Positions 2,505-25,690 of a DNA stretch of 28,475 nucleotides are shown here, in pieces. Source of the stretch: a virus; the IMG/VR virus record IMGVR_UViG_3300046007_004619, positions 1 to 28,475 of that record, one strand, 5' to 3'. The notes beneath the pieces are model-generated. The model was not told the origin of the DNA. It was given only the letters and a program-made list of their open reading frames with translations, and did no database searches. Each line of letters starts with the position of its first letter. Within the stretch, counting starts at the first letter, position 1. The translations under genes were made by a program, and so were the position numbers.

Positions 2505-3311
2505 TAGTTTCGCCTTTAGGAACTATAACGTCAAGAAATCCGCTATGAATAAACGGTATTTTAAATAATGTATCTTTAAGTGGGAGTTGTTCTTCTCGAA
2601 TAAGTTCAAGAAGAATATTCTGAGGGAGTCCGTAATACTCATTAAGATAATTACGGATAATCTTATAGACTTCAAAAATCTGCTCGTTTGTTTCCCAAAG
2701 ATAGAAAATCTCAATATCATTCTCTTCTTCAGGAAGGATTTCATTTTCCGCGAAAGGTAATCCAGGGAAAGCTTCTTTTGTTTTCTCTAAAGTCTTTCTA
2801 GCTTCTTCAGCTTTATGTTCTTCAGAGTAGTTTAAAAGAAGTTTCCCATAGAATTCTCCCGCTTCAATTAGTTTTTTATTTCAGCTTCCTTGAAGTCAAC
2901 ATTATACAATGTTTTCAAATAAGCAGTAATAAGAGAACCCTTCCAAGGAATAGAATCAAGATACATATTGGTGAGGACTTCCAAAGCTCCAGAAGCATCT
3001 TCCCAGAAGGGTTCAATAACTTTAACTGTTCTTGTATCTTTAACAGTAATTGTTTCAGAAACTTCAAGAGTTTCCTCATCGTAGATTGTGATTATTGCAT
3101 TTTTTATATAAAGAATTTCTTCTTTTAAAGTTACTTCTGCTTCTACTTCTGAAAGGTCTTTGATTTCTTCCAGTTTTTGTTGAGCAGCTTTTGCTGAATA
3201 TCTTTTGAAACCAACGAGGATTGTTGTTTCTTTACCTTCTGCATCTTTAGCAGAAGTTACAGGAATTTCAACAAAAGGAGATTGAGAAGAAATGAATAAT
3301 TTTTTAGCCAT
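2497..3311 (-). CDS. Tail assembly chaperone gpGT (-1 frameshift product)
   Basis: Reading starts at ATG 3311, follows the gpG frame to the slippery heptamer at 2877-2871, slips back one base and continues CTA ATT GAA... to TAA at 2499-2497. I translated the whole -1 frame by hand: it is open for 124 codons after the slip (LIEAGEFYGKLLLNYSEEHK at the start, GFLDVIVPKGETNE at the end), giving a fusion of 271 residues, close to the lambda gpGT size. In lambda-like phages gpGT is made in small amounts, bridges gpG bound to the tape measure with tail tube subunits, and is absent from the finished tail. The T stop overlaps the tape measure start by 8 bases. No independent start codon with a ribosome site was seen for T, so frameshifting is the likely way it is made. 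Confidence 0.9.
2868..3311 (-). CDS. Tail assembly chaperone gpG-like
   Basis: A 147-residue protein (lambda gpG is 140) starting MAKKLFISSQ and ending EAEIKN. It is thought to coat the tape measure protein during tail assembly. I chose ATG 3311 instead of the upstream in-frame ATG at 3362. An AAGGA lies 8 bases before ATG 3311, whereas the longer start would add 17 residues overlapping the end of the preceding gene. The protein has a beta-rich N-terminal half (LVGFKRYSAKAAQQKLEEIK) and a helical C-terminal part. Its stop codon directly follows the slippery heptamer. Identity is by position and by the frameshift arrangement, since gpG sequences diverge strongly. Confidence 0.88.
   Translation of the reverse strand: MAKKLFISSQSPFVEIPVTSAKDAEGKETTILVGFKRYSAKAAQQKLEEIKDLSEVEAEVTLKEEILYIKNAIITIYDEETLEVSETITVKDTRTVKVIEPFWEDASGALEVLTNMYLDSIPWKGSLITAYLKTLYNVDFKEAEIKN
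2871..2877 (-). promoter_or_regulatory. Programmed -1 ribosomal frameshift site (A AAA AAC)
   Basis: On the minus strand the gpG frame reads GAA ATA AAA AAC TAA, so the heptamer A AAA AAC fits the canonical X XXY YYZ pattern in phase. The zero-frame stop follows immediately. An SD-like AAGGA (2891-2887) ends 9 bases before the heptamer, a spacing close to the stimulatory SD of E. coli dnaX. The -1 frame is open for 124 codons beyond. Lambda itself uses GGGAAAG at the same place. Confidence 0.92.
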
Positions 3312-3322
3312 GATTATTATCC

Positions 3323-3565
3323 TTAGAAAGAAGTTGGTTGAGCTACTGCACGAACCCAGCACATAATACCTTTTTGAAGGTCAGTTCTACCTTCATTTAA
3401 CCATCGCATATCTATTTGATGGTTACCTGTATTTGCATTAGTTACAGCTAAGTAGTCATAAAGTTTACCTAATTCTTCCCCTAAAGATTTGATTTTATTC
3501 ATACAATCAATTTCATCTTGAGTTAAATCCCGATACCCTTTTATTAAAGTATGTTGATCTTTCAT
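3323..3565 (-). CDS. acb2: Acb2/Tad1-family cyclic-nucleotide sponge (anti-CBASS candidate)
   Basis: An 80-residue protein with the family's conserved pattern: N-terminal HTLIKGYRDLTQDEIDCMN, middle DxRWLxxGRTxLQxGxM, and C-terminal RAVAQPTSF. Proteins of this family form small helical hairpins that assemble into oligomers. Characterised Acb2 proteins sequester cyclic dinucleotide and trinucleotide signals of CBASS; the related Tad1 sequesters the Thoeris signal. Tyr11 and Lys26 are present at positions I recall as ligand-contacting in the characterised Pseudomonas phage Acb2. The gene sits inside the tail operon between tail tube and gpG, so it would be expressed late with the virion genes. 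An AGGACAAA ribosome site precedes the ATG, and its last codons overlap the gpG ribosome site. Family membership is judged from remembered consensus; which signal it binds cannot be told. Confidence 0.85.
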   Translation of the reverse strand: MKDQHTLIKGYRDLTQDEIDCMNKIKSLGEELGKLYDYLAVTNANTGNHQIDMRWLNEGRTDLQKGIMCWVRAVAQPTSF

Positions 3566-3601
3566 TTTGTCCTCACAAAGGTTTATAAAAGAACCTGCAA
3601 A

Positions 3602-3626
3602 CAGATAGAAGAAAAACTCCTATCTG
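3602..3626 (-). other. Hairpin between tail tube and acb2 genes
   Basis: Minus-strand arms CAGATAGGA and TTCTATCTG pair over 9 bp (one G-T wobble) around a 7-base loop. The hairpin lies in the 79-base gap after the tail tube stop, one of the two largest gaps in the operon. There is no clean U-tract after it, so it may be an RNA-processing or stability element or a weak attenuator rather than a full terminator. Confidence 0.4.
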
Positions 3627-3644: not shown

Positions 3645-4907
3645 TTATTGATAAAAGATAAAACTAGAACCTGTATTTCTAAAGGTAACATCCCTTCCTA
3701 AATACGTTGCAACTTTACCTTGTTTTACGTTTGCTAATTGCAGTTTATCCCACATATAAGCAACTGTACTACCAGCAACTGAACCACCAAATTTAATAAT
3801 ACCAGCAAAGAATTGAGTAGTATTAGCATCAGGGTTAAATACACCAACTTCACCAACTTGAGGTTCCAACATAGTTACAGAAACATCTGTTGGAGTTGCA
3901 CCTTTAGCAAAACCTTGGTCACAACCAGTTAAGTAACGTTGGTAGTCATAACCAAAGAAGTTTGGTGCAGATAAGGTTGAGAAACAGAAAGTCTCAGCAG
4001 CAGTATCACCTTTAGAAACAGTTGCAGTGCCAGTAGCAGTACCAGTTCCAGTAGAACCTTTAGCGTAATATTGAAGCTTAGTTGTGGTTGTTGCATAAGC
4101 TACAAAGTCACCATTCAAGATTGAAGGTGTTAAACCTGAAACTCTAATACGAACAATATTACCAACTGGAACAGAATGAGCAGCCGCAGCAGTTACAACA
4201 GCTTTAGCACCTACATAAGTTACAGAAGTAATAGTACCTAATGAGGTATAAACTGGAGTAACACTCATATTAATCAACTGAGCTGTTTTAACCGTACTTG
4301 CTAGAACAGAAGGAGCAACACGAGTTGTTTGTGTACCAAAACTTGCAGTTTGTTTTGCAACAGCAGCAGGTTCATCAGCATTACCTTTAAGACTGAACTT
4401 TAAAGTTGGTACTTCGCCCAAACTAGCATTAACATCTACTGTTCCGCGTAAATCCCAGAACTTAGTAAGTTTATCGTTTGTTGCATCATCTGGAGAAGCA
4501 AAACGAACATCAGCAGTACCATAGTCAGCAGATTCAATTGCATTATCTACCCAAACTTCTTTTGTGGCAGCATCAACAATAACATTACCACCACAAACTT
4601 GGAACAGTTTCCAAATAGAAGCTGCATCAGGGTTAATTGCAGTACCCATATCAGAAAGAACTTGGTTGAATGTAGTAACACTCATATCAATATACTTGTC
4701 TTTCTCATAGGTATATTCATCACGGGATAGTGAGTCACCTAAGTATTGGAAACTTCCTGTATCTCTTGTAGTATCAGCAGAAATTTCTGTACAAGCAATA
4801 GCAGTAGTTGGGCCGAGGGAAGCAGTTGCTACTTTATTAGCACTTCCTGAAGCTGTTTGTAAACCAAAATAAACTGCTTGGTTCTTCTCATGGAACTTAA
4901 TTGCCAT
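3645..4907 (-). CDS. Major tail tube protein (gpV-like) with inserted beta domain
   Basis: A 420-residue protein expected to form the stacked rings of the tail tube. Its place between the tail terminator and the gpG/GT genes matches lambda V. The start MAIKFHEKNQAVYFGLQT and the segment FWDLRGTVDVNASLGEVPTLKFSLKGN resemble tail tube proteins. It is much longer than lambda gpV (246). Residues ~222-300 (TSLGTITSVTYVGAKAVVTA through YYAKGSTGTG) look like a small all-beta domain found inserted in many phage virion proteins, with a conserved sense of VPVGNIVRIRVSGLTPSILNGDF. This insert is bounded by Thr/Gly-rich linkers and probably sits on the tube surface. A GGAG inside the end of the preceding 47-residue ORF serves as ribosome site. 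Confidence 0.85.
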   Translation of the reverse strand: MAIKFHEKNQAVYFGLQTASGSANKVATASLGPTTAIACTEISADTTRDTGSFQYLGDSLSRDEYTYEKDKYIDMSVTTFNQVLSDMGTAINPDAASIWKLFQVCGGNVIVDAATKEVWVDNAIESADYGTADVRFASPDDATNDKLTKFWDLRGTVDVNASLGEVPTLKFSLKGNADEPAAVAKQTASFGTQTTRVAPSVLASTVKTAQLINMSVTPVYTSLGTITSVTYVGAKAVVTAAAAHSVPVGNIVRIRVSGLTPSILNGDFVAYATTTTKLQYYAKGSTGTGTATGTATVSKGDTAAETFCFSTLSAPNFFGYDYQRYLTGCDQGFAKGATPTDVSVTMLEPQVGEVGVFNPDANTTQFFAGIIKFGGSVAGSTVAYMWDKLQLANVKQGKVATYLGRDVTFRNTGSSFIFYQ

Positions 4908-14137: not shown

Positions 14138-14160
14138 AACTATAATCTCAAAAAGGTTTC

Positions 14161-14181
14161 AAGGCTGGCTGGACACCGGCC
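14161..14181. other. GC-rich island upstream of small terminase, candidate cos-related site
   Basis: AAGGCTGGCTGGACACCGGC, continued by one C, is strikingly GC-rich in very AT-rich surroundings, just upstream of the small terminase gene, where lambda has cos. It shows partial two-fold symmetry (GGCTGG with CCGGCC). It also contains the -35 box of the plus-strand promoter. A cos or terminase site is inference from position and composition; a regulator-binding site is equally possible. Confidence 0.3.
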
Positions 14182-14198
14182 TATATATAAGGTATAAT
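14170..14198 (+). promoter_or_regulatory. Sigma70-type promoter of plus-strand operon
   Basis: TGGACA (14170-14175), 17 bases, TATAAT (14193-14198). The -10 is perfect and the -35 has five of six matches. Transcription would start near 14205, about 70 bases before the first plus-strand gene at 14277. Confidence 0.8.
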
Positions 14199-14222
14199 AC
14201 GCCAAAAAGCACTAATTGTAAA
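14194..14222 (-). promoter_or_regulatory. Sigma70-type promoter of morphogenesis operon, sharing the -10 region
   Basis: On the minus strand TTTACA (14222-14217), 17 bases, TATTAT (14199-14194); five of six matches in each box. Transcription would start near 14187, about 50 bases before the small terminase gene. The -10 box overlaps the opposite-strand -10 by five bases, so the two promoters cannot be occupied at the same time. Confidence 0.72.
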
Positions 14223-14276
14223 ACTATAAACGTAATAATTTATCTATAACTTGCTGAGGATTTTAAAGGGTTACTT

Positions 14277-23880: not shown

Positions 23881-24106
23881 CTCCTTCTAACAAATTAATA
23901 ATATATCCACAAGCATCTTTCATACTTTGTTTCTCAACATCCAAGCCGACTTCAAGAATAAAACCTCCAAGATGTGTTAATCCCCATAGAAGTTTTGGGT
24001 ATTCAAACAACTCTCCTTTAAGTTCTCCATTGTAACAAGCGTATATTTCATTAATAACTTCCCTCTCTATAAGCCTTCCGTCGATTAGTTCTATGTATGC
24101 TGACAT
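23867..24106 (-). CDS. Small hypothetical protein downstream of rep
   Basis: A 79-residue acidic protein starting MSAYIELIDGRLIEREVINE, with LLWGLTHLGGFILEVGLDVE in the middle and a C-terminal helix (DACGYIINLLEGDEG). It overlaps the end of rep by 16 bases and the next gene by 14, so its expression is tied to Rep. A replication-control or early phage role is possible. No family is recognised. Confidence 0.6.
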   Translation of the reverse strand: MSAYIELIDGRLIEREVINEIYACYNGELKGELFEYPKLLWGLTHLGGFILEVGLDVEKQSMKDACGYIINLLEGDEGA

Positions 24107-24831
24107 TGTTCTTCTACCTTTTCCTCAACTTTAAGGTTCACCTTAAATAAAATCTTAGTTGCTTGCCTTCCAGTATATTCTACAGTGTAGGTTATAAAAA
24201 TATTACTTAGTAGATTAACTTCTGCAACCGCTATGTCTATAACTTTTTGCCTAAAGTTACTAAATCTTGTATAAGATTCATCGCCAATACCTAGAAGTCG
24301 TCTGACTTCTTCAACATCCCTATCTAACTTCTGTGCTCTGAGCCACTTATTACATAATCTATAGAGTCTTATGCTGTATATACTCTGCATCCTGCAAGTA
24401 TTTTCAAGATAATACTTTGAATAAGGGTTATCTTCACCTAATTTAGCAAAGAAAGGAATAATATCCTGATGCCAGCGAAGACTTACCTTATGTGTTTCAG
24501 GATTATATTCAATAGCATCTACCCAAGAAATGATTCTTTTTGTCTTTTCTCCTGCGTTTGGGTCAACAAGTTTACTTTTTATAACAAGTATTTTTGTTTT
24601 AAGTGTTTTACAAGCATCAACAAGAGCATGATAAGCGCAATCTATTGTTAGATTAAATTGATCTGCGAACTCTTGTAAAGGTATTTCGTAAAACTTATCC
24701 TTATCTAAGCCTCCTTTGGCATAGTTTCTTGCTAATGTTAATTGAATTATTCTTATTTCTGTAAGTGATAATTCATGACTTGCATCAATGATTTGATGTG
24801 GTTCACATATTAATAGTTTGTTTTTACTCAT
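24091..24831 (-). CDS. rep: Replication initiator, Rep_3/RepB family
   Basis: A 246-residue plasmid-type initiator. The N-terminal winged helix (~10-130) has the family opening PHQIIDASHELSLTEIRIIQ. The second winged helix (~138-235) carries the diagnostic pattern MQSIYSIRLYRLCNKWL, EEVRRLLGIGDESYTRFSNF and RQKVIDIAVAEVN. Such proteins bind iterons as monomers to open the origin, and often repress their own promoter as dimers. Two perfect 21-bp iterons and a strong promoter lie just upstream. No Shine-Dalgarno sequence precedes its ATG; instead a 20-codon leader ORF ends in an ATGA overlap, so translation is probably coupled. Its presence next to virion genes is the main evidence for a phage-plasmid. 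Confidence 0.9.
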   Translation of the reverse strand: MSKNKLLICEPHQIIDASHELSLTEIRIIQLTLARNYAKGGLDKDKFYEIPLQEFADQFNLTIDCAYHALVDACKTLKTKILVIKSKLVDPNAGEKTKRIISWVDAIEYNPETHKVSLRWHQDIIPFFAKLGEDNPYSKYYLENTCRMQSIYSIRLYRLCNKWLRAQKLDRDVEEVRRLLGIGDESYTRFSNFRQKVIDIAVAEVNLLSNIFITYTVEYTGRQATKILFKVNLKVEEKVEEQCQHT

Positions 24832-24890
24832 AAATTATTTAATAAATTATATTCTCCCATGCCAAAAACATCCCTCCTTCTCCTCTTCAT
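24828..24890 (-). CDS. Leader ORF translationally coupled to rep
   Basis: ATG 24890 begins a 20-codon ORF encoding MKRRRRDVFGMGEYNLLNNL, whose TGA overlaps the rep ATG (ATGA, 24831-24828). An AGGAGGAGG lies 9 bases before the ATG in a purine-rich leader, while rep has only AT-rich sequence in front. Codons 3-6 are AGG AGA AGG AGG, four successive Arg codons that are rare in many enterobacteria. In IncFII and IncB plasmids a leader peptide coupled to rep controls replication. A competing short ORF (ATG 24871, 10 codons, ending 24839) lies in another frame with its own GGAGGG. Confidence 0.62.
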   Translation of the reverse strand: MKRRRRDVFGMGEYNLLNNL

Positions 24891-24919
24891 CCTCCTTTTC
24901 CTCCTCCTTTCCCTTTCCT
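24871..24919. repeat. Polypyrimidine/polypurine tract in rep leader
   Basis: Forty-nine bases that are almost all pyrimidine on the plus strand (one A at 24889) form a purine-rich 5' leader in the rep mRNA with several GGAGG-like ribosome sites. The tract may tune ribosome loading on the leader ORFs. A triplex or other unusual DNA structure is possible but not shown. Confidence 0.75.
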
Positions 24920-25021: not shown

Positions 25022-25200
25022 TCTTTTTAGCAAGCCGAATTTTTGTAGTCGATAGCCGAATTTTTGTAGTCGATAGAGTGAAAAAAAGTGCGAATTTATC
25101 AACAAAATCAAAGACTTATCAGCACCGTGCCTCATCCTATAAGTACTTATAAGACGAAAAGGCTAATCCCTTACTGATTTTGTGGGAATTATTGAAAAGT
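25022..25200. other. Probable replication origin region
   Basis: Besides the iterons this gene-free stretch contains a DnaA-box-like TTATCAACA (25096-25104, one mismatch to TTATCCACA) and a perfect 14-bp palindrome TATAAGTACTTATA (25138-25151). AT-rich sequence flanks both sides. No partition site or toxin-antitoxin gene is seen. The whole gap between rep and the GIY-YIG gene is about 400 bases and is explained by promoter, leader and origin elements. Confidence 0.72.
25033..25076. repeat. Two tandem 21-bp iterons
   Basis: AGCCGAATTTTTGTAGTCGA plus T is repeated perfectly at 25033-25053 and 25054-25074, followed by AG. A partial third copy (GCGAATTT) is seen at 25090-25097. The 21-bp period (two helical turns) and the place upstream of rep are typical of Rep_3 iterons. 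Confidence 0.88.
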
Positions 25201-25237: not shown

Positions 25238-25690
25238 CTAACATCTTTTAAGTAAATCCTCAAAACTCCATCTTTCTTCTTTAAACTTATTCCCAATGTT
25301 TAAAACATCCTTAACATAAACCTCAGTATTTCCATTATTAAAATCAAAAAGATTAAGACCCTTATATCTCCATTCTTTAAACTCTTTATGAAGAAGTCCT
25401 TCAATAACTAACGCTTGACTTGCTTTAGCAAAACTTAAAGAAGCAAGAAGCTCAACTTTATACTTATAACTTATATTTAAAGATTCAATCCTTTCCCTAA
25501 CTGTTTTCATCGTGAAGCCTATCTTATATAAAGTATGAGAATCATTGCTTATTCTTAAATAATAAACTTTACCTCCTGTTCGATAATACTTTGCATCTTC
25601 TGGGTATTGGATTTCGTTAATATATTTTATATAAAGTTCTCCAGCGACTTCTTTAAGCCCTCTTGTGAAGAGTTTCTCCGGCTGCCACAT
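25238..25690 (-). CDS. GIY-YIG-like (T5orf172-type) protein
   Basis: A 150-residue protein. KVYYLRISNDSHTLYKIGFT holds the YYL...YKIG pair that corresponds to GIY-YIG, followed by Arg65 in TVRERIESLN and Glu97 in VIEGLLHKEFKEWRYKG, positions expected for the catalytic Arg and metal-binding Glu. A NGNTEVY segment follows near 119-125. GIY-YIG nucleases cut DNA in repair, homing or defence; small stand-alone forms are common in phages and plasmids. GGAG lies 7 bases before the ATG. An extended -10 with an overlapping palindrome lies upstream. Confidence 0.78.
   Translation of the reverse strand: MWQPEKLFTRGLKEVAGELYIKYINEIQYPEDAKYYRTGGKVYYLRISNDSHTLYKIGFTMKTVRERIESLNISYKYKVELLASLSFAKASQALVIEGLLHKEFKEWRYKGLNLFDFNNGNTEVYVKDVLNIGNKFKEERWSFEDLLKRC

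Follow-up and report, generated by a model that had tools for sequence, protein, structure and literature searches.

Among the predicted tail genes of an uncultured virus lies a small reading frame that raises three questions: what its product does, whether this product belongs to the tail, and whether its location is unusual. The window, i.e. the whole stretch of DNA analysed, is a 28,475-base IMG/VR record that is classed as linear and ends inside the tape-measure gene. The reading frame occupies positions 3323-3565 on the minus strand and, from an ATG at 3565, encodes a protein of 80 amino acids.

The gene encodes a member of the Acb2 family

A preliminary description had assigned the protein to the Acb2 family from its motifs, and had proposed a profile search against the Acb2/Tad1 hairpin family as a check. 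In a Pfam profile search, the protein scored 52.9 bits with PF24729 Acb2_Tad1_hairpin (E 4.3e-14), about twice the cut-off of that family, which is 27 bits. It also matched phrog_717 in a PHROG profile search (E 7.4e-21), named in PMC10097602 as the family of T4 Vs.4, and the solved Acb2 p26 in a PDB search (PDB 8h2j, E 2.6e-16). Vs.4 was reached as well by a profile built from 19 relatives of the protein. No matching model was found in PADLOC and NCBIfam. PF24729 was also run on representatives of the family members named here, each of which passed. The assignment is borne out by the Pfam, PHROG and PDB matches, which are far above chance, and all motifs listed in the description are present: the protein truly belongs to the Acb2 family and is strongly conserved, and the gene, hereafter acb2, encodes a predicted sponge.

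Predicted fold and ligand residues

An AlphaFold model of the monomer (pLDDT 85) has the topology of Acb2, a short N-terminal segment followed by two long antiparallel helices (residues 16-45 and 53-75). When the PDB was searched with this model using Foldseek, the best six matches were Acb2 chains, with 8h2x and 8h2j at the top, and the next three were Vs.4; all matches beyond these two proteins had E > 1.

T4 Vs.4 is a hexamer with three cGAMP, contacted by Y8, H11, K23, R79 and F82 (PMC10097602). Contact residues were mapped from that paper via an alignment (A1). Vs.4 Y8, K23 and R79, which contact the cyclic dinucleotide, correspond to Y11, K26 and R72 of the 80-residue protein, and all three are invariant in the alignment. 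The tyrosine and lysine that had been described as ligand-contacting are therefore found at positions 11 and 26, and map to cGAMP contacts of Vs.4. The two other T4 contacts, H11 and F82, are not kept, being replaced by L14 and A75. The Acb2 proteins of Pseudomonas phages PaMx33 and JBD67 also have L and A at these positions. Compared with these two proteins, H11 and F82 are found in Vs.4 only and so, as judged from the alignment, are not family-defining; L14 and A75 would be the mark of a subfamily rather than a loss of function.

Positions L29, A66, A73 and A77 of the Vs.4 hexamer (PMC10097602) correspond to L32, G59, G66 and W70. The first three resemble the residues of PaMx33 and JBD67 and are compatible with a hexamer interface. 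W70 is the one notable departure, this position being I in PaMx33, L in JBD67 and A in T4, where the substitution A77I disrupts the hexamer (PMC10097602). From its sequence, the oligomer interface or the trinucleotide channel could differ from that of the studied Acb2 proteins. It is conceivable, if rather unlikely, that the protein is a sponge of altered specificity which, owing to W70 and a short loop between the helices, binds mainly cyclic trinucleotides, as in cA3-type CBASS or type III CRISPR/NucC, or only a small range of dinucleotides. The tryptophan at a hexamer-interface position where studied Acb2 proteins have A, I or L, a loop 13 amino acids shorter than in PaMx33, and the differing ligand range of homologues (PMC12043709) all favour such a change, whereas every invariant dinucleotide residue is kept, and a tryptophan at position 70 is tolerated, as it is common to the relatives from Xenorhabdus.

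That the protein is instead a Tad1-like anti-Thoeris sponge with gcADPR as its ligand is very improbable. PF24729 pools the hairpins of Acb2 and Tad1, and this domain is common to Tad1 and the 80-residue protein. Tad1, however, binds gcADPR and has an N-terminal beta-sheet domain, the loops of which form its gcADPR pockets (PMC12043709). The 80 residues comprise the hairpin only, and the model contains helices and no strands. Because the beta-sheet domain is absent, binding of gcADPR is unsupported, and the suggestion that Thoeris signals are absorbed has to be dropped. The profile of Tad2 (PF11195) matched 0 of 8 records, consisting of the window and its sister records.

The gene lies within a tail operon

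The neighbours of acb2, all on the minus strand, agree with its described location between tail tube and gpG genes. The preceding gene (3645-4907, 420 amino acids) is placed as the tail-tube gene by gene order only; its product matched no tail-tube profile and nothing among 50,697 phage records. The following gene (2868-3311, 147 amino acids) encodes a gpG-like tail assembly chaperone, as indicated by gene order and by a conserved slippery heptamer, A_AAA_AAC, at 2871-2877, which is at the same place in 6 of 6 sequences compared. A -1 frameshift there would lead from gpG into gpGT, the T part of which is an extension of 126 codons (2497-2877). This extension is conserved in relatives (124-133 codons) and runs up to the tape-measure gene (1-2504, cut by the record end; phrog_2335, E 5.8e-35). 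The heptamer, together with an extension of this size before the tape-measure gene, identifies 2868-3311 and its extension, at the level of sequence, as the gpG/gpGT pair. The heptamer at the gpG stop also adds a predicted programmed frameshift in an uncultured lineage.

acb2 thus sits among tail genes, as had been described. Its late timing is deduced from gene order only. A promoter scan gave 30 matches, versus 39.8 in shuffled sequences, and found no acb2 promoter. The leftward late operon is separated from rightward genes by a short divergent region (14138-14276), with promoter-like sites on the minus strand (TTTACA-17-TATTAT) and on the plus strand (TGGACA-17-TATAAT) that are, by count, no better than chance.

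Occupied and empty sites

Inspection of the same junction in related phages revealed both occupied and empty sites. In five relatives (L006-L010), gpG, the tape-measure gene and a tube gene of 73-74% protein identity are present, but the tube and gpG genes are just some 70 bases apart. PF24729 matched 0 of these 5 records, which may be fragments, but the junction is complete in each. Since the same tail genes are present without acb2 in five relatives, acb2 is accessory and not a part of the tail. In a sister phage (L011), acb2 is in the same slot and 95% identical. Downstream of the tube gene, the single outgroup (L012) carries different genes, and acb2 may have been either gained or lost among the relatives.

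The slot between tail tube and chaperone genes would also suit a protein of the virion or of tail assembly that has no more than the helical hairpin in common with Acb2. This reading is nevertheless most improbable, given the five relatives in which tube, gpG and tape-measure genes are retained without acb2, the match to Acb2 at the level of residues, and the homologues that unrelated phages encode in early regions or behind lysis genes.

The hairpin that had been noticed just upstream of the gene is real (about 3602-3626, minus strand, 10 bp stem, UUUUU loop, z -4.9), but is not a feature of acb2: it lies 3' of the tube gene whether or not a relative has acb2. In the acb2-less relatives, its positional counterpart is a U-tailed, terminator-like hairpin. 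The U-run is terminator-like in the empty sites and in L011, and falls within the loop in the window. As the hairpin is kept at occupied and empty sites, it belongs to the tail-tube gene. Downstream of it, acb2 is preceded by the leader AAACCTTTGTGAGGACA (3568-3584, minus strand), with a Shine-Dalgarno-like GAGGA at 3570-3574; this leader is also found ahead of gpG in relatives. In L011, acb2 has a copy of the gpG leader on either side, as AAACTTTGTGAGGTCA and ATAACTTTGTGAGGACA, an arrangement consistent with insertion or loss of acb2 through the leader.

Selection on acb2 was estimated by comparison with L011 (Nei-Gojobori). For acb2, dS was 0.85 and dN 0.048, a ratio of 0.057, whereas for six other genes the ratio was 0.24-0.61 at dS 0.66-1.56. 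The synonymous divergence of acb2 is like that of its neighbours, which suggests that it was probably inherited together with them, with no recent swap. Its dN/dS is the lowest of the seven genes compared; the protein is the most constrained among them and under purifying selection. The patchy distribution of acb2 among relatives could recall a decaying remnant with no present role, an idea hardly worth retaining in view of this lowest ratio, an intact frame with a Shine-Dalgarno-like site, and a Xenorhabdus homologue whose protein is still 88% identical although synonymous divergence is saturated. The sponge gene is accessory, yet its protein is under stronger constraint than the adjacent virion genes, a pattern that fits constant selection from the host's cyclic-nucleotide immunity.

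A probable phage-plasmid lineage

The plasmid form assumed in the preliminary description agrees with a RepM-like plasmid replication initiator of the Rep3 family, on the minus strand of the same record (24091-24831; Rep3_N, E 7.6e-26, and Rep3_C; the score with NF038290 RepM is below its cut-off). Rep3_N is also found in three related records. The co-occurrence of this initiator with terminase, portal and capsid genes on one record supports a phage-plasmid lineage, as far as gene content can tell. The terminase and RepM have relatives with no more than about 30-33% identity. Upstream of the RepM-like gene are a perfect 21-base tandem repeat (25033-25076, 2.1 copies) and a CCT-rich repeat (24873-24914), possibly origin elements. 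Near this replication region, a T5orf172/MUG113 (GIY-YIG-like) protein is encoded at 25238-25690 on the minus strand.

Proposed action of the sponge

The protein is very probably an Acb2-family nucleotide sponge, hexameric by homology, that holds CBASS messengers late in infection or after induction; anti-CBASS activity of homologues has been published (PMC10097602, PMC12657218, PMC12043709). By analogy with these homologues, the two-helix hairpin protein would assemble into a hexamer and hold cyclic dinucleotides between head-to-head protomers via Y11, K26 and R72, with cyclic trinucleotides probably held at the ends of the central channel. CBASS second messengers would be sequestered without cleavage, so that the CBASS effector would stay inactive during virion production.

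As an accessory (moron-type) gene that follows the tail-tube gene and the hairpin 3' of it, acb2 would be carried on the late operon transcript, acting late in infection or after induction and remaining silent in plasmid carriage. A late product, made with the virion proteins, would protect the last lytic stage. Mutations of the major capsid protein help acb2-deleted phages to evade CBASS (PMC10419184), and Acb2 acts during induction rather than maintenance (PMC12043709). Of the two benefits proposed in the preliminary description, the one in infection, or at induction, is expected, whereas that in long-term carriage is weakened, because a gene expressed late would be expected to stay off while the element is a plasmid, and because of the finding on induction just cited. 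In a host with Panoptes, acb2 would be a liability, since sponges trigger this system (PMC12657218).

We propose, tentatively and with more doubt than confidence, that genes for signal sponges have repeatedly docked, in unrelated phages, just behind the 3' hairpin of a highly expressed virion gene (at the tail tube/chaperone or major head/adaptor junction), where read-through of the hairpin would couple the sponge dose to the output of virion proteins and set it below that output. Small reading frames between tail tube and gpG genes are in practice worth profile searches.

acb2 genes in other phages and plasmids

Protein searches gave homologues in 228 phage records and 45 plasmids. The p26 protein of Pseudomonas phages PaMx33 and PaP2 (8h2j, 8h2x) matches the 80-residue protein over its full length and shares Y11, K26, the C-terminal R and the fold; it differs in identity (46%), in its longer loop between the helices, and in gene position, acb2 of PaMx33 being in the replication region. 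T4 Vs.4 (PDB 7uq2) has the same family, fold and equivalents of the three invariant residues, but only 31% identity, and its gene is among small accessory genes outside any structural operon. The closest homologues with a named host (68-88% protein identity) are those of Xenorhabdus prophages, the genes of which, unlike acb2 of the window, directly follow an Rz-like lysis gene, several overlapping its end. These homologues (L016-L030, L041-L057) come from many species; in X. lircayensis, X. beddingii and X. vietnamensis, some genomes hold two copies.

The preliminary description had called the sponge hidden inside the tail operon. Such a placement is not unusual, as several public phages have acb2 in structural modules: JBD67 and its relatives, Vibrio phages 1.087.A, 1.246.O, R19R, PVP-XSN and D60, Marinobacter PS6 and Shewanella 1/41; replication-region or accessory positions are found in PaMx33, T4, B8b and VP16T. 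The slot is identical in two Vibrio phages, vB_VpaM_R19R and PVP-XSN, where acb2 follows the tail-tube gene and a hairpin and is itself followed by the genes for assembly chaperones and tape measure, although these are contractile-tailed phages with a sheath gene and their Acb2 is longer (94-115 amino acids). In JBD67, acb2 (gp34) is likewise within a late head-tail operon, 3' of a hairpin after the major head gene, but there it separates the major head gene from the head-tail adaptor gene, in another type of phage that is not a phage-plasmid. In a comparison confined to these three phages, strong hairpins of -15.5, -15.5 and -20.6 kcal/mol were located between the abundant virion gene and the acb2 region (L069:2945-3005 and L070:2445-2505 for R19R/PVP-XSN, L058:4740-4795 for JBD67).

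In a phage-plasmid of Klebsiella, which encodes capsid, portal, terminase and ParB proteins, acb2 comes directly after a DUF2829 (Tad2-family) gene. Given these precedents, acb2 is new neither to tail operons nor to phage-plasmids, and the function of Acb2 is already known; what the window contributes is an Acb2 sponge in a phage-plasmid lineage that is uncultured, and the understanding of the Acb2 mechanism is unchanged. In the Klebsiella phage-plasmid (L059:4540-5246, CP056499.1), the DUF2829 gene overlaps the start of acb2, forming a two-sponge cassette, and by annotation this cassette is present in many of 35 Klebsiella records.
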